Virus record (IMG/VR): IMGVR_UViG_3300033145_001550
Span: 1-26,347 of that record
Length of the DNA stretch: 26,347 nt
Origin: a virus
Strand: one strand, 5' to 3'
Under the pieces are notes generated by a model. It was not told where the DNA came from, did not search any database, and saw nothing but the letters and a program-made list of their open reading frames with translations. Of this stretch, positions 603-23,657 are shown piece after piece. The translations under genes and the position numbers were made by a program. The stretch's first letter is position 1. Each line of letters begins with the position of its first letter.

Positions 603-2633
603 TTATTTCTCCTTTTTCTTACTAATATTTTTCTTTTCTTCTTCAGATAATTCCTCTACTAATTTAACTTCTTTTGATTTCCAATCGTAAATACATGGTA
701 CTTCTATATTACTTCCTTGTATTTTTGGTTCTCTTATTTTTTTAAATGTAAATTTAGTATATGTACCATCATCACTTTCGTACACATATTTGGCTAATAC
801 TGTAGGATATTGTCCGATTTGGTCTTTAGCAAAAAATGAATCATCTTCCCTTAATTGAACAAAACAGATTAAAAAAGAATCAGTCTTCTCTGCTTTCTCT
901 ACTAATTTATCAAATAATAAATCGGTTCTTGCAAATCCTTGTTCTTTATTTGGTCTTACCCAATCATATATAGTTACAGAATTTGGTCTTAAAATTACAT
1001 TATCAGGATTGCTACAACGAGCAGAGAAAAAACTACCTTCTCTTAATCCTAAATGTTCTGCGGTGCGAGCAAATCTGCCACCCTGTTTTTCTGAATATAT
1101 ATAATAAGGTTTTATATTTTGGTCTACTAATCTTTTAATTATATTTATCGCCAATGTAGATTTTCCATATCCAAATTTACTACCTATGATTATAATATCT
1201 CCTTTACAAAAATATGCATAGTCATTTAAATAAGGTACTTTAAAATCTACAGGGGCTCCTATATCTAGCAAAGTGTCCTTCCAATCTAAATCTTCTATTA
1301 TTTTTATTTTTTTACCTACTTGAGTAATTTTTTCTTCTTTGATTAAATATTGTATAATTTTATTAAATCTTTTTTTAGATTCTCCTTTAGTCCATTCACC
1401 AGCAATAGATAATTCTAAATCAGATTTTGTTATTTCTTTAACTTCTTTTATATGTTTTAAAACTTCATGTGCTAATTCTTGTTCATCATTAAAATCATAT
1501 TTTTCTAGTTCTCTACACATTGCAGAAATAGTTCTTCTATCCATTGGTTTCTCTAATAAATGAGTATTAAAAGTTTGCAAAACAAATTCTGTTTGATTAG
1601 GATTCAATTCTTGTCTTATAATACCTCCTAAACTAACAATAGAACTATTGCATGTGTTTTCTAACCCATTATTTTTTAATTGAAAATCATTAGGTTTAAC
1701 TTTAAAATTACCCGTTTTAATATTTTCTTTTATAATTTCGCTATTAGTTTTTCGAGGAATTGTAATTTTATTTTTTAAATATTTTTTTAAATTATCTGAC
1801 ATTTTAGGAATTAGTTTTAATTCTTTAAATGTTCTTGCTGTAATACCTATTTTTGATGGTTCTATTAATATATAACCGCCGTCATTTTCTATATCAATAT
1901 TAATATTAGCTATTTTTGCTTTAGTTTTAGGAAAATCTTCTTCATATTGATAAATTAAATGGGTTCCTCCTAAATTTTCTTGAATTAAAGGACTTCCCAT
2001 TATATCTTTTATTTCATTATATACTATATTTAATCCTTCTATTCTTTTATCTAATAATTCTTTTTTTCTATTTACAGTCATTTTTTTAAATCTAAATTCT
2101 TTTTTTTCTTCTTTAGTTAGAATATCTATATCAATTACAGTAATATTTGAAGCTTTTCCTGTTCTGGCTCCCAAATTAAGGTCATCTTTTACCCAGCTAC
2201 TCCATTGGTCTTTGTTTCTATATTCTTTAGCAGTCCAATCTTTCATTTGAGCTACAGGAATTTTACTATTAGGACTTATTGCTAACAAAGACCATTTATT
2301 TTTATCGTAGAAATCTAACAATTTATCAGTATCTTGTATATCTTTAGGAGTAATAATTTCTACATTAAAAGACTCTTTTATATATTGTAATATTTCTTCT
2401 TCAGATAAATTTACTTTATCTATTTCTACTGCTCTAATTACATCTATCAAATTATATTTTGTCTTACAATGGAAGCAATTAATTATTGAAGTATTGGGAA
2501 TAATTGTAGCAGTTCTTCCCTCTCCCTCGCATAAAGGACAATTTAGCATTACTGTTTTGCCAGTTTTTTTATAATCAATATTTTTTAATTTAAAATAGTC
2601 TATAATATGTTTTAAAAGGATATTTTTATACAT
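603..2633 (-). CDS. Primase-helicase (zinc ribbon, prim-pol, RecA-like ATPase)
   Basis: This 676-aa protein likely primes and unwinds DNA at the element's replication fork. Residues 32-56 form a CHC2-like zinc ribbon (CPLC at 32-35, CFHC at 53-56). Residues about 105-290 match an archaeo-eukaryotic-type primase-polymerase: LGARTGKASNITVIDIDI carries the catalytic acidic pair, and a GGTHLIY motif follows. A primase C-terminal-like helical segment and a winged-helix-like linker come next. From about residue 470 there is a RecA-like ATPase with Walker A GSKFGYGKST. The walker-B-like strand (SFLICFVQL) is less typical. The architecture resembles phage and plasmid primase-helicases. AGGAG lies 8 nt before the ATG. 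It is the last large gene of the operon before the left edge. Confidence 0.9.
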   Translation of the reverse strand: MYKNILLKHIIDYFKLKNIDYKKTGKTVMLNCPLCEGEGRTATIIPNTSIINCFHCKTKYNLIDVIRAVEIDKVNLSEEEILQYIKESFNVEIITPKDIQDTDKLLDFYDKNKWSLLAISPNSKIPVAQMKDWTAKEYRNKDQWSSWVKDDLNLGARTGKASNITVIDIDILTKEEKKEFRFKKMTVNRKKELLDKRIEGLNIVYNEIKDIMGSPLIQENLGGTHLIYQYEEDFPKTKAKIANINIDIENDGGYILIEPSKIGITARTFKELKLIPKMSDNLKKYLKNKITIPRKTNSEIIKENIKTGNFKVKPNDFQLKNNGLENTCNSSIVSLGGIIRQELNPNQTEFVLQTFNTHLLEKPMDRRTISAMCRELEKYDFNDEQELAHEVLKHIKEVKEITKSDLELSIAGEWTKGESKKRFNKIIQYLIKEEKITQVGKKIKIIEDLDWKDTLLDIGAPVDFKVPYLNDYAYFCKGDIIIIGSKFGYGKSTLAINIIKRLVDQNIKPYYIYSEKQGGRFARTAEHLGLREGSFFSARCSNPDNVILRPNSVTIYDWVRPNKEQGFARTDLLFDKLVEKAEKTDSFLICFVQLREDDSFFAKDQIGQYPTVLAKYVYESDDGTYTKFTFKKIREPKIQGSNIEVPCIYDWKSKEVKLVEELSEEEKKNISKKKEK

Positions 2634-2930: not shown

Positions 2931-3380
2931 TTATTTTTTTATTTTTTTCTTATTAATAGTTTCTATTTTAATTTTAATATATTTAAGTTTTAAAATAAAA
3001 TAGATAAATGTTGTTGAAGCGATAGCTAATACAAATTCTCCTAATCCGCACATGATTCCTATACCAACTATTGTCCAAATACAAGCAGAAGTAGTTACTC
3101 CTTTTAGTTTTCGTTTATCAGATATTACTACCATACCAGCTAAAAATCCACAGCCTCCAATAATATAAGATAAAATTCTACTGAAATCAAAACTAAAGTC
3201 CATTTGTTTAGCAATAGGTAATAAAAGGAAAGGAAGTAATGTAAAAATAGTAGCTCCTAAACCTATAAGCATTATAGTCCTCATCCCTGCCGATTTATCC
3301 TGTTGTTCTCTCTCATAGCCAATAATAAAACTAAGCACAAGAGAAATTAACAATCTAACAATATAAACAATTTCTATCAT
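2931..3380 (-). CDS. MgtC/SapB-family membrane protein
   Basis: This 149-aa protein matches the membrane domain of the MgtC family: GYEREQQDKSAGMRTIMLIG, then GGCGFLAGMVVI and GVTTSACIWTIVGIGIMCG, with about four to five hydrophobic spans. It lacks the cytoplasmic ACT-like C-terminal domain of full-length MgtC and ends in a Lys-rich tail. MgtC proteins in bacteria act in magnesium stress and in modulation of the F-type ATPase; whether this short form does so is unknown. AAAGGAG precedes the ATG by 6 nt. It follows a SemiSWEET gene and forms part of a run of transport-related genes that is unusual for a phage. Confidence 0.85.
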   Translation of the reverse strand: MIEIVYIVRLLISLVLSFIIGYEREQQDKSAGMRTIMLIGLGATIFTLLPFLLLPIAKQMDFSFDFSRILSYIIGGCGFLAGMVVISDKRKLKGVTTSACIWTIVGIGIMCGLGEFVLAIASTTFIYFILKLKYIKIKIETINKKKIKK

Positions 3381-3723: not shown

Positions 3724-3944
3724 TTTATCCTCTCTATTACTATTTTTCCTTTGCGAGCTTTAATTTTAACATTACAATCTTCTATTCCTAAATAAGTTAT
3801 TAATAAACTTATTACATTATAATGATTTAAGTCAAATCCAACTACTTCCCATTCCCCCCATATATCTTCAAATTCTTTTTTCCAAATTTCTTGTTTTCCT
3901 AAACATTCATCAGCTATCTTTTTAGCTTTATTTAATTTATTCAT
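3720..3944 (-). CDS. Hypothetical small protein
   Basis: This 74-aa protein has no family I recognise. It has an N-terminal Lys-rich helix, a Trp-rich middle (IWKKEFEDIWGEWEVVGFD) and a basic beta-like C-terminus. AAGGAGG precedes the start. The gene overlaps the aminopeptidase upstream and the SemiSWEET downstream by 4 nt each, so the three are translationally coupled. Confidence 0.75.
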   Translation of the reverse strand: MNKLNKAKKIADECLGKQEIWKKEFEDIWGEWEVVGFDLNHYNVISLLITYLGIEDCNVKIKARKGKIVIERIK

Positions 3945-5017
3945 TTTAAAATCCTCCTTAATTCTCTACTTAAACAAAAATGTTTTAACAAATTTATACC
4001 GTACTCTAAATCCTTTAAATTAATGGTCTCAACTACAGAGTGCATACTTCTTAAAGGAGGAGAAATTATAACCACTCTATCACATAAATCTACTACCGAG
4101 GTAGCATTATATCCAATATTTCCCACTGAAGCCTGATACTGTACTTTTATTTTATTTTTTTTAGCTATACTACTCAAAAGTTTTACAGTATCATTATGAA
4201 TATTTACCCCCCTATACATTACAACCCCTTTTCCTAACTCACATCTTCCAACTTCTTTTTCTAAAGTATCTTCTCCATAGTCTGTAGCAAAAGTTACATC
4301 AAGTCCAACATACAATTCTGGTTTTAACTCGGCTGTCAATTTTCTAGGTGGATTCCCAATTTCTTCTCTTGCTGAAAATACAAAATGCAAAGTATAATTT
4401 GGTTTCTTTTTACTTTTAATTATTTCTTTAATAGTTTCTATAAGAATAAAAACCCCTGACTTATCATCAAATCCATAACCAGATACAAACTGACCTTGAT
4501 TCTTATCTTCTGAAAGACTTCTAAAAAATGGTTGATATACTATAGGGTCTCCTACTTTGACTTTTCTACCTACTCTTTTCCTACCTCTTATACCTATATC
4601 TACTTGAGCTTCGCTAATATCATCTATTTTTTCATTATCTTCATCATCTATTAAATGAGCATGTTTTCTATTAATAACAGCATTAACAATCCCTTTAGAA
4701 GTTAGAATATTTAAATGTCTAGCACTTAATATTTGTTTGCATCCACCGCCTATATATTGCATGCTAATTAAACCATTTCTATCTACATTGGTAACGATAA
4801 ATCCTATAGTATCATGATGTGCTTCTAATACAATTGATTTTTTTAGTTTTCCTTCTATCGTAGCTATAACATTTTTTTGATTATCAATTCTAACTTTTGA
4901 TTTGGGAAGAATTTTCAATAGTTCTTTTTTAATAAATTCGCCTATTCCGGTTTCAAAGCCAGAAGGAGAAGGAATTTCAATTAAATTTTTTAATAGCTCA
5001 ATCTTATTTTTTCTCAT
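3941..5017 (-). CDS. M42-family metallo-aminopeptidase
   Basis: This 358-aa protein is close to the usual M42 length of about 350 aa. M42 enzymes are dinuclear metal aminopeptidases that form tetrahedral particles and trim peptides in the cytoplasm. Expected residues are visible: EAHHDTIGF (H67, D69), GYGFDDKSG (D184 or D185), SAREEIGN (E218 catalytic, E219 ligand), GLDVTF (D240) and RSMHSVVETI (H326). The N-terminal IEIPSPSGFE is also typical. AGGAG precedes the ATG, and the gene overlaps both neighbours by 4 nt. A full-length and apparently intact host-type peptidase is unexpected in a phage. It could recycle peptides made by the proteases encoded upstream, but that is inference. An endoglucanase-type annotation is possible for M42 members and is less likely. 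Confidence 0.88.
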   Translation of the reverse strand: MRKNKIELLKNLIEIPSPSGFETGIGEFIKKELLKILPKSKVRIDNQKNVIATIEGKLKKSIVLEAHHDTIGFIVTNVDRNGLISMQYIGGGCKQILSARHLNILTSKGIVNAVINRKHAHLIDDEDNEKIDDISEAQVDIGIRGRKRVGRKVKVGDPIVYQPFFRSLSEDKNQGQFVSGYGFDDKSGVFILIETIKEIIKSKKKPNYTLHFVFSAREEIGNPPRKLTAELKPELYVGLDVTFATDYGEDTLEKEVGRCELGKGVVMYRGVNIHNDTVKLLSSIAKKNKIKVQYQASVGNIGYNATSVVDLCDRVVIISPPLRSMHSVVETINLKDLEYGINLLKHFCLSRELRRILK

Positions 5018-6214: not shown

Positions 6215-6511
6215 TTATCCATTAGTCTCCTTATATTCTCTTATTTCATAATTGCCAGCCATAACACAAGTAATATATATTTCTATTTTTTTGTAATTGA
6301 TATTAAAAGTTCCTGTTAAGGCTAGTTTAGTGCCATCAATAAAAGTTATTATAGTTGTAGTTCCACCAACTAATCCTCCAGTACCAATATAATTTACTTC
6401 TTGAACTTCTCCACTTTTTAATAATTGTGGTTCGCTTAGACATCCGTTTGACTGACATCCAGTAGTCAAAATTAACATTAACAAAAGGGTAAATATAAAT
6501 AATTTATTCAT
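6215..6511 (-). CDS. Small lipoprotein
   Basis: This 98-aa protein has a short basic N-terminus, a hydrophobic stretch and the lipobox LTTGC with Cys19 as the lipid attachment site. It should therefore be exported and anchored to a membrane. The mature part is about 80 aa, beta-rich, with a GTGGLVGGTTTIITFIDG segment, and is not a family I recognise. AGGAG precedes the start, which overlaps the end of the MFS transporter by 8 nt. The pairing suggests an envelope role, such as changing surface or transport properties of the host. Confidence 0.8.
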   Translation of the reverse strand: MNKLFIFTLLLMLILTTGCQSNGCLSEPQLLKSGEVQEVNYIGTGGLVGGTTTIITFIDGTKLALTGTFNINYKKIEIYITCVMAGNYEIREYKETNG

Positions 6512-7712
6512 TTTGTTCTCCTATCTTCAAAAACGGTATAAAAAATATACATAGCAATGTTAATCCGCTTGAAATTATAACATTAGCATTATATCCTATC
6601 TTATCATAAATTATACCACCCAAGAAATTTCCTCCTCTAGCTGCAAAATTATTAACCGAAGTTACCAATGCATAAAAGAAAGCTTCACTTCCAGAAGGAA
6701 TAATTTTAACAAAGAAAGCAAGGAGCGTCATAAAGGTTATGCCTCCAAACGCTCCAAATAATAAATTATAGATAACCAGAAACCACTTATTTGGAATATA
6801 TAAATAACACAAATTAGTTAATCCAGCAAATACTAACATAAAATATAACAGTTTTTTCATAGGAAATTTATAAGCCCATTTATAATATATCATATAACCT
6901 ATCACTCCTAATACAGTACCCATTGCCCCTAAATAGCCTAAAAACATTTTATCTACGTGCATTACTTCTCGAACTCTAATCATCAATGCAGTTCCAAATG
7001 AAGGGCAAAAATTTAAACAAGCTATAAACAACAACCCAATCAATAATCTTTTACTTTTTAATTTATTAAAATTATTTTTCAATATCTTAATAGGATTAAC
7101 TTTCTTCAACGTCTTTACAGTTTCTTCTTTAAAATATTTAATAAGATAAAATAACATTCCCAATGGTATAATACCTGCTAATCCATAAGCTACTCTATAA
7201 TTAACATGTTCTGGAAAAACTTTTGCAACCCAAGCTCCTACTATTGCTACAACTAATCCGGCTAATCCTAATGCTGTCCATTGAATACTTTGTACTCTAC
7301 CTTCTATTCCTAATTTCTTTTCTGTAATTACCATATGCCTATCTGTACTTACATCTGCAAATGCAATACAAATATTAATTATAATTCCAGTAATTATCAG
7401 TGTTACTAAATTTAATCCAAAAGTTATAATAAATATATAACTAAGTAACAATAATAAATAACTCCCAATTAAATAGTAAGTTGTTCTCTTTCCTCGAATA
7501 GGGACATTATCTACAAAATAAGCAAATGCAATTTTCAAATACCAAGCAATTCCTACTACCCAACCAATTAAGCCAATCATAGTAGCAGATAAACCCCAAT
7601 GCTCTCTCGTAAGGTAATACAGGCACTGCTGTGGCAAGCTAGAGATTCCCTGTGAGGCGTACTGACCTGCACACAAAAGTACTATTAATAAGGGTATTTT
7701 TTTATTTTTCAT
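6504..7712 (-). CDS. MFS transporter (BT1/AmpG-like)
   Basis: This 402-aa protein has about 12 hydrophobic helices. The N-terminal part reads like the BT1/AmpG branch of the major facilitator superfamily: SSLPQQCLYYLTREHWGLSA, then IAWYLKIAFAYFVDNVPIRG and KRTTYYLIG. Members carry folates, muropeptides or related solutes, and the substrate here is unknown. I chose the start at 7712 because GAGG lies 6 nt upstream; an in-frame ATG 12 nt earlier lacks one. It overlaps the zinc-finger gene by 11 nt and the lipoprotein by 8 nt. A complete 12-helix transporter is rare in phage genomes. Confidence 0.85.
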   Translation of the reverse strand: MKNKKIPLLIVLLCAGQYASQGISSLPQQCLYYLTREHWGLSATMIGLIGWVVGIAWYLKIAFAYFVDNVPIRGKRTTYYLIGSYLLLLLSYIFIITFGLNLVTLIITGIIINICIAFADVSTDRHMVITEKKLGIEGRVQSIQWTALGLAGLVVAIVGAWVAKVFPEHVNYRVAYGLAGIIPLGMLFYLIKYFKEETVKTLKKVNPIKILKNNFNKLKSKRLLIGLLFIACLNFCPSFGTALMIRVREVMHVDKMFLGYLGAMGTVLGVIGYMIYYKWAYKFPMKKLLYFMLVFAGLTNLCYLYIPNKWFLVIYNLLFGAFGGITFMTLLAFFVKIIPSGSEAFFYALVTSVNNFAARGGNFLGGIIYDKIGYNANVIISSGLTLLCIFFIPFLKIGEQNE

Positions 7713-7902
7713 TTCTATCCTCATCTAATTCTTCTTCGATAACATAACCCCTCTCTACTATCCTATCGTGAGTTTCTTTAGATACTTCTTTTCCACCTAT
7801 ACCATAAGTAAATGCACTTCTTAAATCTTCGTAACAAGGTAAACATACATACTCATTTACCAATAATTTTTCCTTTTTACAAACTTTGCATTTTCCTTTC
7901 AT
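7702..7902 (-). CDS. Small zinc-ribbon protein
   Basis: This 66-aa protein has paired knuckles, CKVC near residue 5 and CLPC near residue 20, followed by an acidic helical tail ending ELDEDRNEK. It probably binds one zinc ion. AGGATT precedes the ATG, and the gene overlaps YopX by 4 nt. No family or function is recognised. Confidence 0.75.
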   Translation of the reverse strand: MKGKCKVCKKEKLLVNEYVCLPCYEDLRSAFTYGIGGKEVSKETHDRIVERGYVIEEELDEDRNEK

Positions 7903-8225
7903 ATTAATAATCCTGTATTTTCGTAGATATTGCCGATTATTTCTGCTAATTTTTCAGGGTAAAGGGTTCCCATTCTATAGCCAAAAAAATCTGCATATTC
8001 TATTGTATAGTTTTCATAAATAGGTTTATTATCAAAAGTCATTTTAACTCTAACAATATCCCCTTCATATATCTCTTTCCCATTCTTGCCCTTAAGACCA
8101 GTATATTCTTGAGATTCTTTTTTGACGTAATCTGCTAATAAACAAGTAGGAAAACTATCAGTTATACCCCAATAGAAAAATTGTTTTGTTTCTATATCCC
8201 AAATTCTGTATTTTTTCTCTTTCAT
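7899..8225 (-). CDS. YopX-family protein
   Basis: This 108-aa protein matches the YopX family of phage and prophage proteins. Signatures are the YRIWD start, EYTGLKGKNGKEIYEGDIVRV in the middle and AEIIGNIYENTGLL at the end. The function of the family is unknown. The start at 8225 is preferred over an ATG at 8237 because GGAGG lies 5 nt upstream of it. It overlaps the deformylase stop by 4 nt. Confidence 0.9.
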   Translation of the reverse strand: MKEKKYRIWDIETKQFFYWGITDSFPTCLLADYVKKESQEYTGLKGKNGKEIYEGDIVRVKMTFDNKPIYENYTIEYADFFGYRMGTLYPEKLAEIIGNIYENTGLLI

Positions 8226-8644
8226 CCTCTCCTCCATTTTCTATCGAGAATAGTAATCCCATTCATATGGTCTACCTCATGGGCTATACAAACTGCTATA
8301 ATCCCTTTATATCTTTCTTGTTTACCGTTATTAACAATATCAATTGTAGCGTATCTTTTAGTATCTAACTGTAAATTAGGAAAACTTAAACAACCTTCTT
8401 TTATCATTCTAAATTTATCTATTCTATGTATTATAACAGTGTTAATTAAATCTAATCTTAATTCTTTAATTCTAATTATACCTACTCTTTTTGCTACTCC
8501 AATTTGGATAGCAGATAATCCTATACCTCTTTTAGTATCAAGACTATCTTCTAAATCTTTAATAATACCTTTAGCTTCTTTATAAGAAACTTCTTCACTT
8601 ATTACTTTCAAAGCTTTTATATTTGTTACTATTTCTTTTTTCAT
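8222..8644 (-). CDS. def: Peptide deformylase
   Basis: This 140-aa enzyme removes the N-terminal formyl group from new proteins using an active-site metal. All three family motifs are intact: GIGLSAIQIG, EGCLSFPN (metal Cys) and CIAHEVDHMNG (HEVDH, two metal His plus the catalytic Glu). The C-terminus stops soon after motif 3, as in short marine-phage deformylases. It lies directly after the site-2 protease with a 13-nt gap and has a weak ribosome binding site. In phages this enzyme may speed maturation of short-lived or membrane proteins, which is inference here. Confidence 0.92.
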   Translation of the reverse strand: MKKEIVTNIKALKVISEEVSYKEAKGIIKDLEDSLDTKRGIGLSAIQIGVAKRVGIIRIKELRLDLINTVIIHRIDKFRMIKEGCLSFPNLQLDTKRYATIDIVNNGKQERYKGIIAVCIAHEVDHMNGITILDRKWRRG

Positions 8645-8657
8645 AATATTAATCTTT

Positions 8658-9305
8658 TTATATAAACCAAATCCAACCCAATAATATTATTTGTGCTATC
8701 ATTAAAACCCAAAATCCTATCTTAGTTATTTTTTCTAAAAATGAAACGAATTTATTCTTTAACTTTTTTTCCAATAAAAATAACCAAACATACCCACCAT
8801 CCAATGCTGGTATAGGAGCAATATTAGTTATAAAAGCAGCTAAACTCATAAAACTTAATTGTAATAAAAATAAATTAGGTCTTACTGCACTTATCAATAA
8901 ATATATACCATAATGATTTTTAGTAATAAGATACTTCATTAATAAAAAGTCAGTTTGCAGTCCTATACTAATTGATTTAAAATTAATCCAATAACATATA
9001 AAAGCAGTTAATAAATTAACAGTTACTCCAGCTAAAACTATTACTAATTTTTTTGAGTATCTTTGAGTCAGCCATCCTGTTTTTACCTTACCTTTTTCTC
9101 CTTCTAATCTACAGTATCCGCCTAAAGGAATCATACTTAAACGAAAATCTATCCCCCATAATTTTTTATGTAATAAGACTTTACCAAATCCTACGCTAAA
9201 AGCTTCTACTTTTACTCCACATAAAAGAGCCGCTACCATATGCCCTAATTCATGGGATACTATGATAATTAATAATGATACAAACATATACAATATTCCT
9301 AACAT
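8658..9305 (-). CDS. Minimal site-2 protease (M50, RseP-like without PDZ)
   Basis: This 215-aa integral membrane zinc protease should cut substrates inside the membrane. The first helix carries IIVSHELGHMVAALL (H18, E19, H22), and a later helix carries NIAPIPALDGGYVW, with N161 and the third metal ligand D169. The segments FSVGFGK, RLSMIPLGGYCRLEG and LAGVTVNLLTA are typical of RseP-like enzymes. RseP is about 450 aa with two PDZ domains; both are missing here, so substrate gating must differ. AAAGGTG precedes the ATG. It sits two genes after the DegS-like protease and three after ClpP. Confidence 0.92.
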   Translation of the reverse strand: MLGILYMFVSLLIIIVSHELGHMVAALLCGVKVEAFSVGFGKVLLHKKLWGIDFRLSMIPLGGYCRLEGEKGKVKTGWLTQRYSKKLVIVLAGVTVNLLTAFICYWINFKSISIGLQTDFLLMKYLITKNHYGIYLLISAVRPNLFLLQLSFMSLAAFITNIAPIPALDGGYVWLFLLEKKLKNKFVSFLEKITKIGFWVLMIAQIILLGWIWFI

Positions 9306-9322
9306 TTATTCACCTTTTTTCA

Positions 9323-9400
9323 CTATTGTAATTTTTCCATTCCAGTTAAACAAAATAAAATAATTAACAATCCTAATATTTTTTTCATATTAATCATCAT
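9323..9400 (-). CDS. 25-aa hydrophobic microprotein between two proteases
   Basis: The ORF starts at ATG 9400-9398, overlapping the TAA of the protease gene by 1 nt (TAATG). GAGG lies 8 nt upstream, within the last codons of the protease. A second in-frame ATG follows at once, and a third at codon 5. The peptide has the core MKKILGLLIILFCLTG and ends MEKLQ. It looks like a signal peptide or a single membrane helix, with a lipobox-like LTG but no Cys after it. Its position between the trypsin-like and site-2 proteases makes a regulator or substrate possible. It could also be a decayed gene. Confidence 0.5.
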   Translation of the reverse strand: MMINMKKILGLLIILFCLTGMEKLQ

Positions 9401-10161
9401 TATAGTAACCTCAAGTCTTTTAAAAATAATTTCACACTTAGTCCATCAATTGCCAAACCGTGTGCTACATCTACTTGACCCCAACCAAAACCATTAATAG
9501 CAAATATGACTCCTATTAATTCTCCGTCTTTATTACATACTGCAGAACCAGAATTACCATATAACGTTGGTATTTGAATAATATCGTAAAGTCTGTCATA
9601 CCCTGCAAAAACCCCTTCTCCATAAACATACTTTCTACCAAGATGATGCCCTACTAAATAAACAGAGTCTTGAGGAGAACCAAATGAAAATCCTTTTACA
9701 GCTTGTTTTCCTTTCAAGGTTCCTTCAATTTTAATAACAGCCAAATCTACTAAATTACTTTTATGAAAAGCAACAAGTTCAGCTTCTTTTGTTTGTAATC
9801 CTTCTTCTACAAAAAGAGTTACTCTATCTCCTTTATCCCTTCCAGCTACATGAGCATTTGTTAAAATATAAGTATAATCTTTATCTATTTTAATAATTGA
9901 ACCTGTACCACCCCACACTTGACCTATTGTAATAGAATCATCTTCTTCTTTTTTTTCAGAAACTTCTCCTGTAATATAAACAGTAATAGATTTAAGATAT
10001 TTATAAGATGGTTTTACAGGTTTTACAATATTTGAAGTTACAATCTTCTTTGTTTTTACATCTATTTTTAAATTTGAAAAGGTATCAAAAACAAATAATC
10101 CTCCTACAAAAATAAAAGTAACCGAAGCAACTATCAAAATTGTCGAATAAAATTTACGCAT
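9400..10161 (-). CDS. Membrane-anchored trypsin-like serine protease (DegS-like, no PDZ)
   Basis: This 253-aa protein has one N-terminal membrane span at about residues 6-26, a 35-residue linker and a chymotrypsin-fold protease of the HtrA/S1C type. The triad is visible as TNAHVAG (H104), LVDLAVIKI (D139) and YGNSGSAV (S204). With the N-terminal anchor it should face the periplasm or outside, as DegS does. DegS has a C-terminal PDZ domain and about 355 aa; this protein ends right after the protease fold, so peptide sensing by PDZ is absent. AAGGAGG precedes the ATG. The upstream neighbour is ClpP and the downstream genes are a microprotein and a site-2 protease. Confidence 0.92.
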   Translation of the reverse strand: MRKFYSTILIVASVTFIFVGGLFVFDTFSNLKIDVKTKKIVTSNIVKPVKPSYKYLKSITVYITGEVSEKKEEDDSITIGQVWGGTGSIIKIDKDYTYILTNAHVAGRDKGDRVTLFVEEGLQTKEAELVAFHKSNLVDLAVIKIEGTLKGKQAVKGFSFGSPQDSVYLVGHHLGRKYVYGEGVFAGYDRLYDIIQIPTLYGNSGSAVCNKDGELIGVIFAINGFGWGQVDVAHGLAIDGLSVKLFLKDLRLL

Positions 10162-10175
10162 GTTACTTTTCCTCC

Positions 10176-10760
10176 TTATTTAATTACCGCTTCAACAATA
10201 CCTTTTTTAACACAATCTTCTGCATATAGCCATAATTCTTCATTTCTAGCTTTAGTCAAATCTACTACAGATAACTTAGTTTGTTCAGCTAAATAAGCAA
10301 AACTTCTTTTCTGTAACTCTTTACTAAAGTCAGCTCTTGATAAAAATTTAGTAACATAATCATAATTAGCAGTTGCCATATCGTGAGCCATCCATACGCT
10401 ATGTTTAGTTATAAGTCTTGCTTTTCCAGTAACAGAAATTAATCCTGCCATACTACAAGCTTTTCCCATAATTAAAGTAACTATAGGCGACCTACATCCT
10501 CTCATAGTATCTATAATTGCAAATCCGTCTTGAACGCTTCCACCTCCAGAATTAATTAATATTGTAATTGGTTTATGAGATAATTTGTCTAAAATTAAAA
10601 GTTCTTTAATTACTCTACTTGCCATTTGTTCATCAATAGTACCAAAAATCATAATTTGTCTTGACTGTAATATTAATTGGTCTGGTTCTATTTTAGCACG
10701 TGAACTTCTTTCTTTTTTTGATAATTTTTTAGTTAATTTTTTCTTAACTTTTTTAGACAT
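10176..10760 (-). CDS. clpP: ClpP-like serine protease
   Basis: This 194-aa protein has the crotonase-like ClpP fold. Visible motifs are ILINSGGGSVQDGF (oxyanion region), GKACSMAGLI (catalytic S103) and KHSVWMAHDM (catalytic H126). In the place of the catalytic Asp of E. coli ClpP the best alignment gives E176 (NEELWLYAED), so the triad may be Ser-His-Glu or may use another acid. The first 25 residues are very Lys/Arg-rich, unlike the usual axial loop. ClpP needs an AAA+ partner (ClpX or ClpA), and none is in the window, so it may use the host's or a partner elsewhere. AAGGAG precedes the ATG. Confidence 0.9.
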   Translation of the reverse strand: MSKKVKKKLTKKLSKKERSSRAKIEPDQLILQSRQIMIFGTIDEQMASRVIKELLILDKLSHKPITILINSGGGSVQDGFAIIDTMRGCRSPIVTLIMGKACSMAGLISVTGKARLITKHSVWMAHDMATANYDYVTKFLSRADFSKELQKRSFAYLAEQTKLSVVDLTKARNEELWLYAEDCVKKGIVEAVIK

Positions 10761-10768
10761 ATTTCTCC

Positions 10769-11272
10769 TTATTTATTTTCTACTAATCCCAAAATAGTAT
10801 TATAAACTTCTGTAAAAATATCTTTTACATTCTTAGGTTCTATATGTCCTTGAAGCCCTATCATAACTCTTGATGTTGCATGAGCTACTGCTTCTCTTTT
10901 AATAAGTTCATCTTTTGAAGTAACAGCTACTTTCGCCGGATTCTTTTGGTTACAAGTGTAACACTTCTTATATCTATCGTCTTTTAAAGGTTTTCCACAT
11001 TCTTCGCAAACAAATTTTAATTCAGGTTGAACTCCTTGAGGAGGAGATTCTTTAGGAGTAGTTTGTTGACTTTCTCCTTTTCCTTTTGTAATATATGTAA
11101 TAGTAGATTTTCCACCGCTTCTATCGTATTTAATTGTTACTTCATCACCATTAGAAATATTATCTTTTACAAAATTAACTACAGGGTCAGCTAAAAAATA
11201 CCATGTAGCGTCATTTTCGTTGGTCCCTATCTTTAACATTTTACCAGTTCTCATTATTGCGATAACTTTCAT
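10769..11272 (-). CDS. OB-like protein with zinc ribbon (possible ssDNA-binding protein)
   Basis: This 167-aa protein starts MKVIAIMRTGK. I chose this start because GGAGG lies 9 nt upstream; an in-frame ATG 54 nt earlier lies inside the upstream gene. Residues 1-65 look like a compact beta-barrel with a GDEVTIKYD strand. A Gln/Pro-rich linker follows, then a zinc ribbon (CEECGKPLKDDRYKKCYTC) and a helical tail. The layout is compatible with a single-stranded-DNA-binding or replication accessory protein, and the adjacent FEN exonuclease fits that. The assignment is inference, as no diagnostic motif is present. Confidence 0.7.
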   Translation of the reverse strand: MKVIAIMRTGKMLKIGTNENDATWYFLADPVVNFVKDNISNGDEVTIKYDRSGGKSTITYITKGKGESQQTTPKESPPQGVQPELKFVCEECGKPLKDDRYKKCYTCNQKNPAKVAVTSKDELIKREAVAHATSRVMIGLQGHIEPKNVKDIFTEVYNTILGLVENK

Positions 11273-11292
11273 TTTACTTTTCCTCCTTAATT

Positions 11293-11478
11293 TTAGTAGT
11301 TTATTAATTGGTATATATCTCTCCATACTTTATTAAAATATGAAATGTATCCTTTTTTACTATTAAATTCTCCTTTCTTTATTTCATCAAGAGTTATTCT
11401 TAATCCATTTATTGTAATTATGGTATTATTTATGTTATAAGAAATATTTCTTTTTTTTAACCAGTTTAAAACTTTCAT
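11293..11478 (-). CDS. Hypothetical small protein
   Basis: This 61-aa protein starts MKVLNWLKKRNISY and has short beta-like segments (NTIITINGLRITLDEI) and an aromatic C-terminus. GAGGAG precedes the ATG, and the start overlaps the exonuclease stop by 4 nt. It is not recognised. It is probably expressed with the exonuclease and the zinc-ribbon protein. Confidence 0.7.
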   Translation of the reverse strand: MKVLNWLKKRNISYNINNTIITINGLRITLDEIKKGEFNSKKGYISYFNKVWRDIYQLINY

Positions 11479-12293
11479 TTCTTTTCTCCTCTTTTTGCAG
11501 CTTTTTTCTTGGCTAATTTTTTCTTTTTTCTTTCATAATACTTAACACTTTTTTCATAAGGTTCAGTACCATTATTATAAATACTCATAAATCTATCTCT
11601 TATATTATCAAATGGTATTTCTTCTACATTAATATCTTTCTCTTGCAAATTATTAAGACTTTCTCTAATAGGTATCTCTACAAATTCTGGTAACTCTAAT
11701 AAATTAATTACTTTCTCTCTATTATCAAAATCTTTAGTTGATAAAATAGGATTAACCAAATTATCTGCTACTTCTTTTCGTACTTTTGATGATATTAATT
11801 TATAAACATTAAAATTTTCAGGTTTGATTTTATATCTATGGGATTTAAAATGAGGGCTAAATATTTTAACATTTGGATAATACCACATTTGTTCCATATC
11901 AGAATCAGAAGTTATTAAAATTACTTCATTATCTTTATAATATTTACACCCAACCGCCATAATATCATCTGCTTCTAAATGTTCGATTTTTATAAAATGC
12001 CAATTAGTTGCAATGTTTATTTTTTCTACTAATTCATCAAATTCTTTATATTTTTCTTTTGGTAAATGTTTTCTTCCTTCTTTATATTGTGGCTCATAAT
12101 CTTTTCTCCAACTACTTAAAAAATCCATAGCTATTATTATTTTATCATCAGGGTCAATTCCTATTTTTTTTAAATTGCTTATAACCATATTTAAACAATT
12201 ATGAGGGGCATATAATTTAGGATTAGTTACAGAAGCCCAGCCAGCGGTGTGTATAAAAAATCCCCAATCTATAAAAACTACTTTATTCTTCAT
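11475..12293 (-). CDS. FEN-type 5'-3' exonuclease / RNase H-like nuclease
   Basis: This 272-aa PIN-fold nuclease should remove RNA primers or 5' flaps during replication, as T4 RNase H does. Metal-binding acids are visible in VVFIDWG, IIIAMDFLSSWRKDYEPQYK (with the R/K-rich arch), EHLEADDIMAVG and ITSDSDMEQ. The last 30 residues are almost all Lys, Arg, Ala and Glu, a likely DNA-binding tail. GAGG lies before the ATG, and the start overlaps the end of a homing endonuclease gene by 4 nt. Confidence 0.9.
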   Translation of the reverse strand: MKNKVVFIDWGFFIHTAGWASVTNPKLYAPHNCLNMVISNLKKIGIDPDDKIIIAMDFLSSWRKDYEPQYKEGRKHLPKEKYKEFDELVEKINIATNWHFIKIEHLEADDIMAVGCKYYKDNEVILITSDSDMEQMWYYPNVKIFSPHFKSHRYKIKPENFNVYKLISSKVRKEVADNLVNPILSTKDFDNREKVINLLELPEFVEIPIRESLNNLQEKDINVEEIPFDNIRDRFMSIYNNGTEPYEKSVKYYERKKKKLAKKKAAKRGEKK

Positions 12294-16610: not shown

Positions 16611-17357
16611 TTAAAATCTAAATTTATAATAAACTATGATACGATTTGAAGCATCAAATCCTTTCCCTGCACCAATTCCTAAACCAGAATTATCTGTTAT
16701 TTGATAAGAGGTTCCCAAATAAACTCCTCTATTAGTTAAGAAAGCATCGAGTTTCCATTTCCAATATTTAATAAAAGACACTCCAGCTCCACCTTCGAAT
16801 CCACTATTATCTCCACCTGCTCCATATCCAGCTATTCCTATAGGTTCTAAAATAAATCCAATAGGTTTAAGTGCTTTAGCAAGTAAAGGGAAATCTTTAG
16901 CTTTAATATTTTTAATTATATTGCCTTTACTGTCCATAACATATAAATCTTGGCTGTTTTTTGGTTTTACAAGAAAATGACCGTTAAGTTTCATTTTAAA
17001 TTCTCTTGTATATTCTAAATTAATTTTAATAGGAGTATTGGCTTTACCTTTAAAATAACCATATCCGAATATACAACTTAAAATTATACTATATACAACT
17101 AATTTCCTAACATTAAATAACCCTACAATATCTTTAGCCCAACCTACAGGGTTCGATAATCCTTTAAAACCAGAAAAGAATTTTTTCCAAGTAAAGGCTT
17201 CTGTTCCATCTACTTTATAAGTATTTCCTATATTACAATTAAAACCTGTAATATCTTTAGTAGTTTTCTTAGCTCTATTTATAATAAACTTTCTAATATA
17301 AGTAAAAGCTACAACTGCTAAAAGCGTTGTAAATAAACCTACTATAAATTGTATCAT
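16611..17357 (-). CDS. Membrane protein with beta-barrel-like C-terminus
   Basis: This 248-aa protein has two hydrophobic helices, at about residues 3-20 and 86-104, separated by a basic loop with VDGTEAFTWKKFFSGF. The last 75 residues are Gly- and aromatic-rich with alternating strands (GIAGYGAGGDNSGFEGGAG, LGTSYQITDNSGLGIGAGKG) and end YYKFRF. A terminal aromatic after alternating strands is typical of outer-membrane barrel proteins, yet only about 5-6 strands are present. It may assemble as an oligomer or only mimic a barrel. GGAGG precedes the ATG, which overlaps the upstream stop (TAATG). A role in envelope passage or lysis is possible. Confidence 0.65.
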   Translation of the reverse strand: MIQFIVGLFTTLLAVVAFTYIRKFIINRAKKTTKDITGFNCNIGNTYKVDGTEAFTWKKFFSGFKGLSNPVGWAKDIVGLFNVRKLVVYSIILSCIFGYGYFKGKANTPIKINLEYTREFKMKLNGHFLVKPKNSQDLYVMDSKGNIIKNIKAKDFPLLAKALKPIGFILEPIGIAGYGAGGDNSGFEGGAGVSFIKYWKWKLDAFLTNRGVYLGTSYQITDNSGLGIGAGKGFDASNRIIVYYKFRF

Positions 17358-18110: not shown

Positions 18111-18890
18111 TTATTTAATTTTGTTATTATATACCTCTTTTATTAGGGTAATATCTGTCTGCAAATACCTCATTGTAGTTTGTATATTACTGTGCCCCAA
18201 CAACTTAGAAACAATTGTTACATCAACTCCTTTCCTAAGTAAATGAGTCGCAAACGAGTGTCTCAACAAATGAGGTCTTAATTTAATATCCATAAAATAG
18301 GGCTTTAAGGTCTTAAAAATGTCTGATATAGCATATTTGCCCACATTAAAGGCGTTTTCTACCTCTCCCTCGGAGTTAAAATACTCTAATAAAATCCTTC
18401 TAATTCGTTTAGGAAACACCGCTAAACGCTCTTTTTTGGTCTTTTTTTCATAAACCTTTACCATACAAGACTTTATGTCAATATCCTTTCTTTTAATAGG
18501 AGCCAACTCGCTTTGTCTAACCCCTGTATAAAACATAAAATAAAGTAAAGCCTTTACTCTCAATGGTTTAGAGAAAATATCCTCTAACATTGGTATAATA
18601 TTACCCTCAAAATATTCTTCGGTTATACTATCCGGTAATTTATGAATACATCTGCTAAGTTTAGGCATTTCTATATCTAACTCTTTGAAGCGAATATAAG
18701 CCTTAATCGCCTTAATATTCAGATTGACATATTCGGTAGAGTAACGCTGTTTAAGGCTCAGAATATGGTTATAGAGTAGTTCTTTGGTCGGTGTTTTAAT
18801 ATGGGTCAGTAGGCGGTTCACAATCCCCACATATACCGAGCTGGAATGTCCATTTGCCTTGAGGTAGTCAGAAAAATTAATGTTTCTCAT
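18111..18890 (-). CDS. Tyrosine recombinase / phage integrase
   Basis: This 259-aa XerC/D-like recombinase has an N-terminal SAM-like core-binding domain (to about residue 75) and a catalytic domain with TGVRQSEL (R125), the beta-hairpin Lys (about K149-K153), [12 protein letters not shown] (H207, R210), [10 protein letters not shown] (H233) and RYLQTD (nucleophile Y242). All catalytic residues are present. Its short N-terminus, without an arm-binding domain, is more like a Xer or simple-element recombinase than a lambda integrase. AAAGGAG precedes the ATG. It sits between the two longest non-coding gaps. The base composition of the 5' half seems richer in G+C than the neighbours. It may integrate the element or resolve multimers. 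Confidence 0.93.
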
Positions 18891-21877: not shown

Positions 21878-22504
21878 TCAGTATTTATCTTTTTTGCTTC
21901 TATTTTCTGAGACAGTCAATGCTTGCAAATTACTATAATTAAAACATTTAATTTGCTCTTCTGGTTTACTTAAATCAAAACGGCAACAAGGTTTGATATG
22001 GTCAATTTCCCAAACTTTACCATAATTCTTCCAATTCATATTTTCTGTAAAAGTTTTTTCTAAGTGTTTTTTTAATTCTGATATTGTACAGCCTAATAAT
22101 TGTAATGTTGATTTTGATTTTGTTTTTTGTTTTAATGCTCCGCATAAACGACTTCTTAAATTAGACCTCATTTTATAATTTATATCGGTTTTTCGTTTAA
22201 ATATATGATATAGATTTTTATTTTTACATTTTCCATGTTTAAAATTTGGATTGTTTTTTCCTTTGCGTATCATTCCCAAACATTTTCTACATAATTTAGC
22301 ATAATAATTACCTAATTGTTTATCGCAATTTTGACAAATAGGAAATTCACAGCATTTCCCATGCCTAAAACCATTTGAAAACTGTCTTTTTTTTCCTTTC
22401 ATAGTTTTACTTTGTCTTTGTTTGCTTTTTTCACTTCGTTTATGTCCTATTAAAGATAAACTAATCTTTTGTCTAGTTTCTTGGGTATGATGTCTTTTAT
22501 TCAT
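21878..22504 (-). CDS. Free-standing HNH homing endonuclease with NUMOD3 repeats
   Basis: This 208-aa protein has N-terminal NUMOD3 repeats (HTQETRQKISLSLIGHKRSE, KQRQSKTMKGKK), two FxHGK motifs around a zinc site (CQNCDKQLGNYYAKLCRKC), and an HNH domain with LGCTISELKKHLEKTF, WEIDHIKPCC and YSNLQALTVSENRSKKDK. It should nick or cut DNA at a specific site. It starts with ATGAATAA overlapping the RuvB-like stop. The N-terminal module resembles that of the other homing endonuclease in this window although the nuclease domains differ. Confidence 0.9.
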   Translation of the reverse strand: MNKRHHTQETRQKISLSLIGHKRSEKSKQRQSKTMKGKKRQFSNGFRHGKCCEFPICQNCDKQLGNYYAKLCRKCLGMIRKGKNNPNFKHGKCKNKNLYHIFKRKTDINYKMRSNLRSRLCGALKQKTKSKSTLQLLGCTISELKKHLEKTFTENMNWKNYGKVWEIDHIKPCCRFDLSKPEEQIKCFNYSNLQALTVSENRSKKDKY

Positions 22505-23657
22505 TTTTTAATTCCTTTAATAGATCGATACCTTTTTCAGTAATTACTCTACCTCTTGGAGTTCTAGCTATAAATTCTTTTCTTACTAAAAATGGTTCAA
22601 TAAAATATTGATAAGTTAAATTATCTGTATTTAAAATTTGTGTTAAAGTAGTAGCCCCTACAGGAGTAGTTTGTTTAGCTAAATATATTAATAACAATAT
22701 ATCTTTTTCAGTTATACCATTTTTATGAATTTTAAGGTTTTCCATTTTTTGAATAGCAATTTCTTTATCTATTTTGGTAATCTTTTTATATTTAGCATAA
22801 TAATAAATATTATCTAATAATCCTAATGATAGTCTTGGAGTTTGTTTACTTCTTGAAGCAATTTCTAATAAAGCCTCCGGCGTAAATTCTAAATCCCTTT
22901 TCTTTGCTTGGTTGTTTATAATAGTTGCCAATTCTTCATCTATATAAGGTCTTAAAATAAATTGTTGTTTACATCTATCTACTAATGGGCTTAATTTTTT
23001 AGTAAGAAAACCCAAATCAGTAGTAGCCCCCGCCAATGTAAAATAAGGAATTGGTTTATTTGCTACTTTGAATAACTGCACAGCAGGTAATAATAATTCT
23101 CCTATTTCTTTTTTCAATCCATGAATTTCGTCAATAAAAATTATAGAATAGGGTGGTTCTTTTTTTAATTGGCTAAATAATTTATAAATATCATCTGGCT
23201 TTTCCAAATTACCTGCAACAGTTTCTATTAAATGCAATCCGCTTTCTTTTTCAAGTAAGTGAATAAGAGCAGATTTACCATAACCTGCATTGCCACTTAT
23301 AAGAATATGCGGATAAGGAATTGTATTATCATTTTTGATAGCTTGTAAAGTTTCTTTTATTGTATCTTTTACAGCCTCTTGCCCTATATATTCTTTCCAA
23401 CATTTCGGCTCAGTATCCAATTTGTTGTCTTTTCTATCTACAAAAAAATCATATTTTTCTAAATTTTCGTGAGGGCTTATAATTTCAACCTTCAAAGGCT
23501 TTTCTTCTTCTCCAAAATTTCTAATTTCTTCCTCGGTAGGGGCATTTCCAAATTCTATATCACTACCCCTTAAAGGGTCAAAAACATAAACTACACTTTT
23601 ATAAGCTAAAACTACCACCACTATAAATATAAGAATTATTAATAATATACTAGCCAT
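22497..23657 (-). CDS. Membrane-anchored RuvB-like AAA+ ATPase
   Basis: This 386-aa protein matches RuvB from about residue 85 on: IGQEAVKDTI, Walker A GNAGYGKS (122-129), Walker B IIFIDEIHG, sensor 1 GATTD, DRC in the arginine-finger place, TPRLSLGLL (sensor 2) and a winged helix with FIARTPRGRVITEKG. RuvB normally drives branch migration with RuvA. Two features are unlike RuvB. Residues 3-19 form a membrane span, supported by a GAGG site 7 nt before the ATG, and residues 20-85 are a charged linker. The hairpin between PAVQLF and FTLAGATT is about 15 residues shorter than in RuvB, where it contacts RuvA. The preceding gene overlaps by 1 nt. Confidence 0.9.
   Translation of the reverse strand: MASILLIILIFIVVVVLAYKSVVYVFDPLRGSDIEFGNAPTEEEIRNFGEEEKPLKVEIISPHENLEKYDFFVDRKDNKLDTEPKCWKEYIGQEAVKDTIKETLQAIKNDNTIPYPHILISGNAGYGKSALIHLLEKESGLHLIETVAGNLEKPDDIYKLFSQLKKEPPYSIIFIDEIHGLKKEIGELLLPAVQLFKVANKPIPYFTLAGATTDLGFLTKKLSPLVDRCKQQFILRPYIDEELATIINNQAKKRDLEFTPEALLEIASRSKQTPRLSLGLLDNIYYYAKYKKITKIDKEIAIQKMENLKIHKNGITEKDILLLIYLAKQTTPVGATTLTQILNTDNLTYQYFIEPFLVRKEFIARTPRGRVITEKGIDLLKELKNE

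Follow-up and report, generated by a model that had tools for sequence, protein, structure and literature searches.

Among the closest described counterparts to the genes considered here is the DegS–RseP–ClpXP pathway of Escherichia coli (RseA, sigma-E), which brings together a tethered HtrA-type protease, an RseP-type site-2 protease (S2P) and ClpP. The same enzyme types are encoded in a row, along with a peptide deformylase (PDF), on a phage contig that makes up the whole of IMG/VR record IMGVR_UViG_3300033145_001550. We refer to this contig, 26,347 bases in all, as the window, and to its run of peptidase genes as the island. The window has a low GC content (25–30%), carries nearly all of its plausible genes on the minus strand and probably represents only part of a larger genome. 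The likeness to the E. coli pathway has clear limits. Neither phage membrane protease has a PDZ domain; the phage genes are clustered whereas those of E. coli are dispersed; the phage S2P is optional and a deformylase sits in the cluster; the acid residue of the phage ClpP is a glutamate; and the close relatives of the window gave no match to sigma-70 region 2.

In E. coli RseP a PDZ tandem acts as a size filter, holding back intact RseA until DegS has made its cut, and impairing the PDZ domains permits DegS-independent cleavage (PMC7728848). RseP has other clients besides: it degrades small membrane proteins and neutralizes the HokB toxin (PMC10470546), and it clears signal peptides (PMC4597795). 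The phage S2P shares with RseP (S2P group I, M50B) the HExxH and LDG motifs, and its first transmembrane helix (TM1), membrane-reentrant beta hairpin and TM2 align at 28–36% identity with the RsePs of E. coli, Kangiella and Aquifex. Where it departs from RseP is in its length, in the missing PDZ domains and in the short helical linker that joins TM2 to TM3. S2Ps that lack the PDZ tandem are known from Methanocaldococcus jannaschii (mjS2P) and Bacillus subtilis (SpoIVFB). These have the same core, yet they match the phage S2P more weakly than RseP does, in both sequence and fold. SpoIVFB carries a CBS domain, which is absent from the phage protein.

Phages have their own precedents. Host proteins are the proposed targets of jumbo-phage ClpPs, such as that of Cronobacter phage GAP32 (Iyer et al. 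2021, PMC7824862). These are likewise phage-encoded ClpP serine proteases, of a different lineage from ours, the best INPHARED matches to the window ClpP being only 32–38% identical. Uncultured Caudovirales encode M50 peptidases (A0A6J5SMS1 and A0A6J5RHB6) that are also of the S2P type, at 18–19% identity. Beyond the jumbo-phage ClpP, a literature search that missed most subscription journals returned nothing relevant on phage-encoded S2P, M50, HtrA or regulated intramembrane proteolysis (RIP), and within that same literature we found no report of a phage pairing an S2P with an HtrA-type protease. A PDZ-less mini-RseP linked to phage HtrA-type proteases thus appears undescribed. If active, it would rank as a very small enzyme of the RseP type and be useful for asking what PDZ domains do; an active island would be evidence that phages turn intramembrane proteolysis against their hosts.

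Intact catalytic motifs, missing PDZ domains

Profile searches with Pfam, NCBIfam and the PDB concur on the four identities: ClpP, a trypsin-like protease of the HtrA/DegS type, an RseP-type S2P and PDF. The family and fold assignments hold down to 21% identity, as do the invariant catalytic residues. We begin with the trypsin-like protein, which matches Pfam Trypsin_2 at 1.5e-16 and whose family profile finds HtrA/DegS structures in the PDB at about 1e-22 to 4e-24. Its triad (H104, D139 and S204) is invariant across 10 sequences from 8 phages, and is kept even though some of these trypsins share just 21–29% identity. There is one hydrophobic segment, residues 7–25, and the AlphaFold2 (AF2) model, with a pLDDT (predicted local distance difference test) of 81, places a single N-terminal helix (residues 2–29) ahead of an HtrA-type protease domain. 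Hydrophobicity and model together give the protein an N-terminal membrane anchor of the DegS kind. Its N terminus is basic and the protease domain is therefore predicted to face outward, so it should lie on the outer side of the cytoplasmic membrane. In fold comparisons the model matches HtrA and DegS structures, among them DegS delta-PDZ (2qf3, 2qf0); the protein stops after the protease domain, with no C-terminal PDZ. For this protein and the S2P alike, the AF2 models drew solely on alignments from this lineage, and transmembrane segments were assigned from hydrophobicity and the models.

The S2P is the more unusual of the two. It matches Pfam Peptidase_M50 at 1e-33, and its family profile finds RseP in the PDB at 8e-29, with the match split over two stretches. 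The HExxH motif (HELGH, residues 18–22) and the N161..P164..LDG signature (LDG at 168–170, reading LDGG) are invariant in 7 sequences, the conserved positions including H18, E19, H22, L168, D169 and G170. An AF2 model with a pLDDT of 89 shows four transmembrane helices and a hairpin at residues 33–67 resembling the membrane-reentrant beta element, which reproduces the RseP fold of TM1, hairpin, TM2, TM3 and TM4; Foldseek takes this model to RseP structures, including 7w6x and 9j82. What is missing is a PDZ domain between TM2 and TM3, as seen in the divided profile match and in the length: a protein of 214–232 amino acids in the close phage set, and of 189–240 in the wider lineage, has no room for one. 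In comparison, 83 full-length relatives (fetched bacterial loci and unverified phage loci, leaving aside one protein cut by a contig end) are at least 343 and up to 747 amino acids long. For want of that domain we call the protein RseP-like, or mini-RseP, rather than RseP.

When the phage S2P profile was run against species genomes of bacteria and archaea, some 85,000 in all, the best 80 loci were ordinary long RsePs with no prophage among them (one RseP was cut by a contig end). An HtrA gene lay near only 1 of these 80 and ClpP near 3 at most, and none had both. Searching INPHARED with the S2P and the trypsin found no close relative; several of the M50 matches fell in unverified or bacterial-looking records, and the four that we read were long proteins of PDZ-bearing size (354–452 amino acids).

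The ClpP of the window, which has a lysine-rich N terminus, matches Pfam CLP_protease at 2.5e-32, and its family profile matches ClpP in the PDB at 1.8e-35 over positions 20–189 of 190, nearly its full length. S103 and H126 are invariant in all eight lineage members aligned. So is Glu175, which occupies the position of Asp172 in the Staphylococcus aureus enzyme, a position at which two aligned bacterial ClpPs have aspartate, as do most phage ClpPs aligned from outside the lineage. The canonical Ser–His–Asp triad is replaced by Ser–His–Glu, and we take the protein to be a predicted peptidase. In eight close relatives a search with the AAA_2 profile for a ClpX-type unfoldase gave nothing above the cut-off, the one weak match being a clamp loader. 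The deformylase matches Pep_deformylase at 8.8e-25, and its three class motifs (GxGxxAxQ, EGCLS and HExDH) are intact, reading GIGLSAIQ, EGCLS and HEVDH.

The locus had first been described from its letters and open reading frames, in what we call the sequence-only reading. That description placed five reading frames in a row from ClpP to PDF at 8222–10760, held the motifs of the membrane proteases to be intact and noted that both lacked PDZ domains. The coordinates agree with the first of these points, the invariant trypsin triad and S2P motifs with the second, and profile, length and models with the third. It was mistaken in thinking that ClpP had lost its acid residue, which is the invariant Glu175.

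Clustering across a phage lineage

A single contig says little about whether genes belong together, and for this we turned to related contigs, which belong to a little-studied lineage of tailed phages. A first set of seven contigs (L001, L004, L006, L007, L008, L009 and L024) came from searches with the S2P, trypsin and ClpP. As this set had been found through the proteases themselves, the lineage was resampled through the primase and exonuclease, without reference to the cassette, yielding 34 further records, some of which were reached only through the exonuclease and are distant. The total is 42 records: the window and 41 related contigs. ClpP and trypsin are present in all eight members of the window plus first set, the S2P in seven and PDF in five. 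The unbiased 34 hold an M50 gene in 5 records, trypsin in 14, ClpP in 10 and PDF in 8, which brings the overall counts to 12 for S2P, 22 for trypsin, 18 for ClpP and 13 for PDF. By way of comparison, among 13 unrelated ClpP-bearing viral contigs there was no M50 gene and trypsin occurred in two.

The genes also keep close company. The S2P lies no more than 3 kb from trypsin in 9 of the 12 records that carry it (the window, G001, G002, G004, G005, G006, G020, G023 and G034). Trypsin and S2P occur together in 11 of the 42, so the two do not obligatorily co-occur in these records, which are fragments. All three proteases are found in 10, and in 8 of those 10 they fall within 6 kb, in varying order. 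Of the 13 records with a deformylase, 10 have it no further than about 1.5 kb from trypsin (the window, G003, G005, G006, G020–G024 and G026), making it a recurrent member of the island, linked as tightly as the S2P. L004 and L007 have a 4-base overlap between the trypsin and S2P genes, and in L024 the two abut, an arrangement that suggests translational coupling; L006 and L007 carry a tandem pair of trypsins.

The usual arrangement is exonuclease, g185, then ClpP, trypsin(s), PDF and S2P in variable number and order, then accessory genes and primase. Within it the window reads ClpP–trypsin–S2P–PDF and L024 reads ClpP–PDF–trypsin–S2P, with genes overlapping or touching. Others, in which further genes may intervene, read trypsin–PDF–S2P–ClpP (G023), trypsin–S2P–ClpP (L004, G002) and PDF–S2P–ClpP (L241, G032). 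Proximity that survives such reshuffling speaks more strongly for a functional group than plain synteny would. The record counts are not independent, because the lineages are related, and a naive random-placement probability for the S2P–trypsin distance was not used as evidence, the records being related and picked via these genes. Even so, the data support the conclusion that the peptidase genes cluster non-randomly in related phages.

The small reading frame between trypsin and S2P did not fare as well. The sequence-only reading had made this 25-amino-acid hydrophobic peptide a part of the cassette, as substrate or partner. It is not conserved: in L004, L007 and L024 the touching or overlapping genes leave no room for it, and we rejected it as a component. 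At the same place in L001 (8386–8595) is a frame with a lipoprotein-like signal (LFMSNGC) that has no ATG, GTG or TTG upstream of its hydrophobic part, and the window frame is possibly the remnant of such a small lipoprotein. L004 encodes a 56-residue lipoprotein after the S2P (7524–7694).

What the island might do

Our tentative preference, and we put it no higher than that, is that the island is a sensor-less set of peptidases that strips membrane proteins during infection and is not a copied sigma-E circuit. What we infer about topology, cooperation, host target and timing runs as follows. The HtrA-type protease, tethered by its N-terminal helix, would trim the outer part of membrane proteins; mini-RseP would cut their transmembrane segments; and ClpP, probably supplied by a Clp ATPase of the host, would clear the products that fall into the cytoplasm. 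As both membrane proteases are without PDZ domains, the set would act immediately once made, the stress sensing of DegS and RseP being predicted absent. With the PDZ filter gone, the phage S2P is not expected to need prior site-1 cleavage for that reason. The likeliest use would be destructive: ridding the cell of signal-peptide debris and of host membrane proteins that stand in the way of infection, such as small membrane toxins or defence effectors bound to the membrane. Given the known targets of RseP, we regard this as the most economical reading. A bolder version, in which HtrA-type protease, mini-RseP, ClpP and PDF form a portable system for disarming host defences that act at the membrane, pore-forming toxins or transmembrane abortive-infection effectors for instance, strikes us as doubtful; if true, it would be a previously undescribed form of counter-defence by intramembrane proteolysis.

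Several observations weigh against the stripping of membrane proteins by a cooperating set. Trypsin is some 19 kb from the S2P in G032, and in G035 the S2P is about 12.5 kb from a ClpP–trypsin pair. Six records (G003, G021, G022, G024, G026 and G044) have ClpP and trypsin with no S2P, so the proteases need not cooperate. Single absences prove little, since most of the records are probably fragments; two of these six contigs (G021 and G022) are about 100 kb long. The clustering itself must owe something to shared ancestry, because all of the records come from one related lineage. The enzyme activities are predicted, and both the membrane targets and the Clp ATPase of the host are postulated.

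What else might hold these genes together? One answer is that with them the phage matures and quality-controls its own proteins: PDF would deformylate nascent phage proteins, the S2P would clear signal peptides from phage membrane proteins and lipoproteins, and misfolded products would fall to the HtrA-type protease and ClpP. This gives the deformylase, as closely tied to trypsin as the S2P is, something to do. It also fits with the signal-peptide clearance known for RseP, with the numerous small membrane proteins, along with some lipoproteins, that these phages encode, and with the other peptidases close by (M42 in 6 of 8 close relatives, M78/IrrE-like). A host should already supply such functions, though, and the patchy composition of the island is unlike a housekeeping need. 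We consider this somewhat unlikely, but would take it ahead of the remaining alternatives. Next comes the thought that there is no joint function at all, and that the exonuclease–primase slot is simply variable, its tolerance of cargo and shared expression keeping independent accessory genes near one another. The slot does hold MFS (major facilitator superfamily) transporter, MgtC-like, M42, DprA-like, phosphoesterase, Fic and homing-endonuclease-like genes, the composition of the peptidase set varies, and the strays of 12–19 kb are easily accommodated. That the peptidases remain close through changes of order, and that trypsin and S2P genes overlap or touch in three contigs, is harder to square with independence, and we think it an unlikely explanation.

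The sequence-only reading had proposed a phage RIP cascade, in which trypsin cuts an anti-sigma-like membrane protein of host or phage, the S2P cuts within the membrane and ClpP degrades the rest, freeing a transcription factor. Part of this stands. All three enzyme types of the sigma-E pathway are there and they cluster, and the conserved adjacency that it proposed to look for in related contigs is seen, as proximity within 6 kb, in those 8 complete sets of 10, G032 and G035 each having one gene well away from the others. A fixed three-enzyme cascade does not stand, with the S2P optional and those two records scattered. An optional S2P makes a full cascade unlikely as a general role, and the loss of the RseP PDZ filter makes an ordered, signal-dependent cascade less likely than unregulated cleavage. 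Profile searches of eight close relatives for a sigma-70 region 2 domain gave nothing above the cut-off, and no anchored regulator was recognized among their short transmembrane proteins, which were read by eye and not scanned with helix-turn-helix or anti-sigma profiles. The sigma-E pathway has no role for a deformylase, and the presence of PDF goes unexplained. In records holding all three proteases a full cascade is possible; as an account of the island we find it improbable.

Least credible of all, and judged very unlikely, is a ClpP that serves as prohead protease and neighbours the others by accident: PHROG head maturation protease families are its top-scoring PHROG matches, and each of seven close-relative records searched has a single ClpP, but the gene belongs to the replication block (G004 has its tape-measure gene, and the structural genes beside it, on the opposite strand), it is absent from G029 (104 kb) and G034 (90 kb), both searched whole, and its match to canonical ClpP runs nearly end to end.

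Gene layout and neighbours

The features of the island and its slot are collected in Table 1. A scan of the island for terminator and promoter patterns gave no terminator-like site on the minus strand and promoter counts at chance level.

Table 1. Positions of the island genes and flanking features in the window.
Feature	Positions	Strand	Remarks
ClpP-like gene	10176..10760	-	194 aa; PF00574
Trypsin-like gene	9400..10161	-	253 aa; PF13365 (Trypsin_2)
25-aa hydrophobic ORF	9323..9400	-	not conserved
S2P gene (M50)	8658..9305	-	215 aa; PF02163
PDF gene	8222..8644	-	140 aa; PF01327
g185, zinc-ribbon protein, left boundary of island	10769..11326	-	in 7/8 close relatives and most additional mapped records
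5'-3' exonuclease-like, left anchor of slot	11475..12293	-	PF02739 3.9e-17; 8/8 relatives
Primase-like, right anchor of slot	603..2633	-	PHROG DNA primase matches; 8/8 relatives

Several accessory genes share the block with the peptidases. In the window, all on the minus strand, these are an MFS transporter of the BT1/folate-biopterin type (6504–7724; no INPHARED match), an M42 aminopeptidase (3941–5017) and an MgtC-family membrane protein (2931–3380), each present in 6 of 8 close relatives. Downstream of the island, four relatives have an IrrE/M78-like HExxH metallopeptidase (L007 11711–12151, where the Pfam match is weak; L006 13111–13533; L008 10345–10674; L009 13443–13925). In L008 a Fic/DOC-family gene (8484–8945; PF02661, 2e-13) is inserted between trypsin and PDF, and L007 has a metallophosphoesterase gene (10138–11718, 526 amino acids) with an apparent intein-like or homing-endonuclease-like interruption. 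A papain-family (C1) peptidase is found in the structural region of G004 (L117 2805–3650; PF00112, 7.8e-22).

A clamp-loader-like AAA+ protein (window 22497–23657, minus strand; L126 1968–3092; L124 8621–9730) has an N-terminal hydrophobic helix in three of four relatives, and such a helix would anchor a replication factor at the membrane. Another gene, g248 (window 16611–17357, minus strand), has one or two transmembrane segments and homologues in L001, L006, L008, L009, L153, L154 and L169; the window copy found no PHROG or Pfam match. The encoded protein is a possible substrate, and its aromatic C-terminal residue (...YYKFRF) might point to an outer membrane in the host. Lastly, the window encodes a tyrosine integrase (18111–18890, minus strand; PHROG 1e-29), conserved in G003, G006 and G020, from which the phages of this lineage may be temperate.

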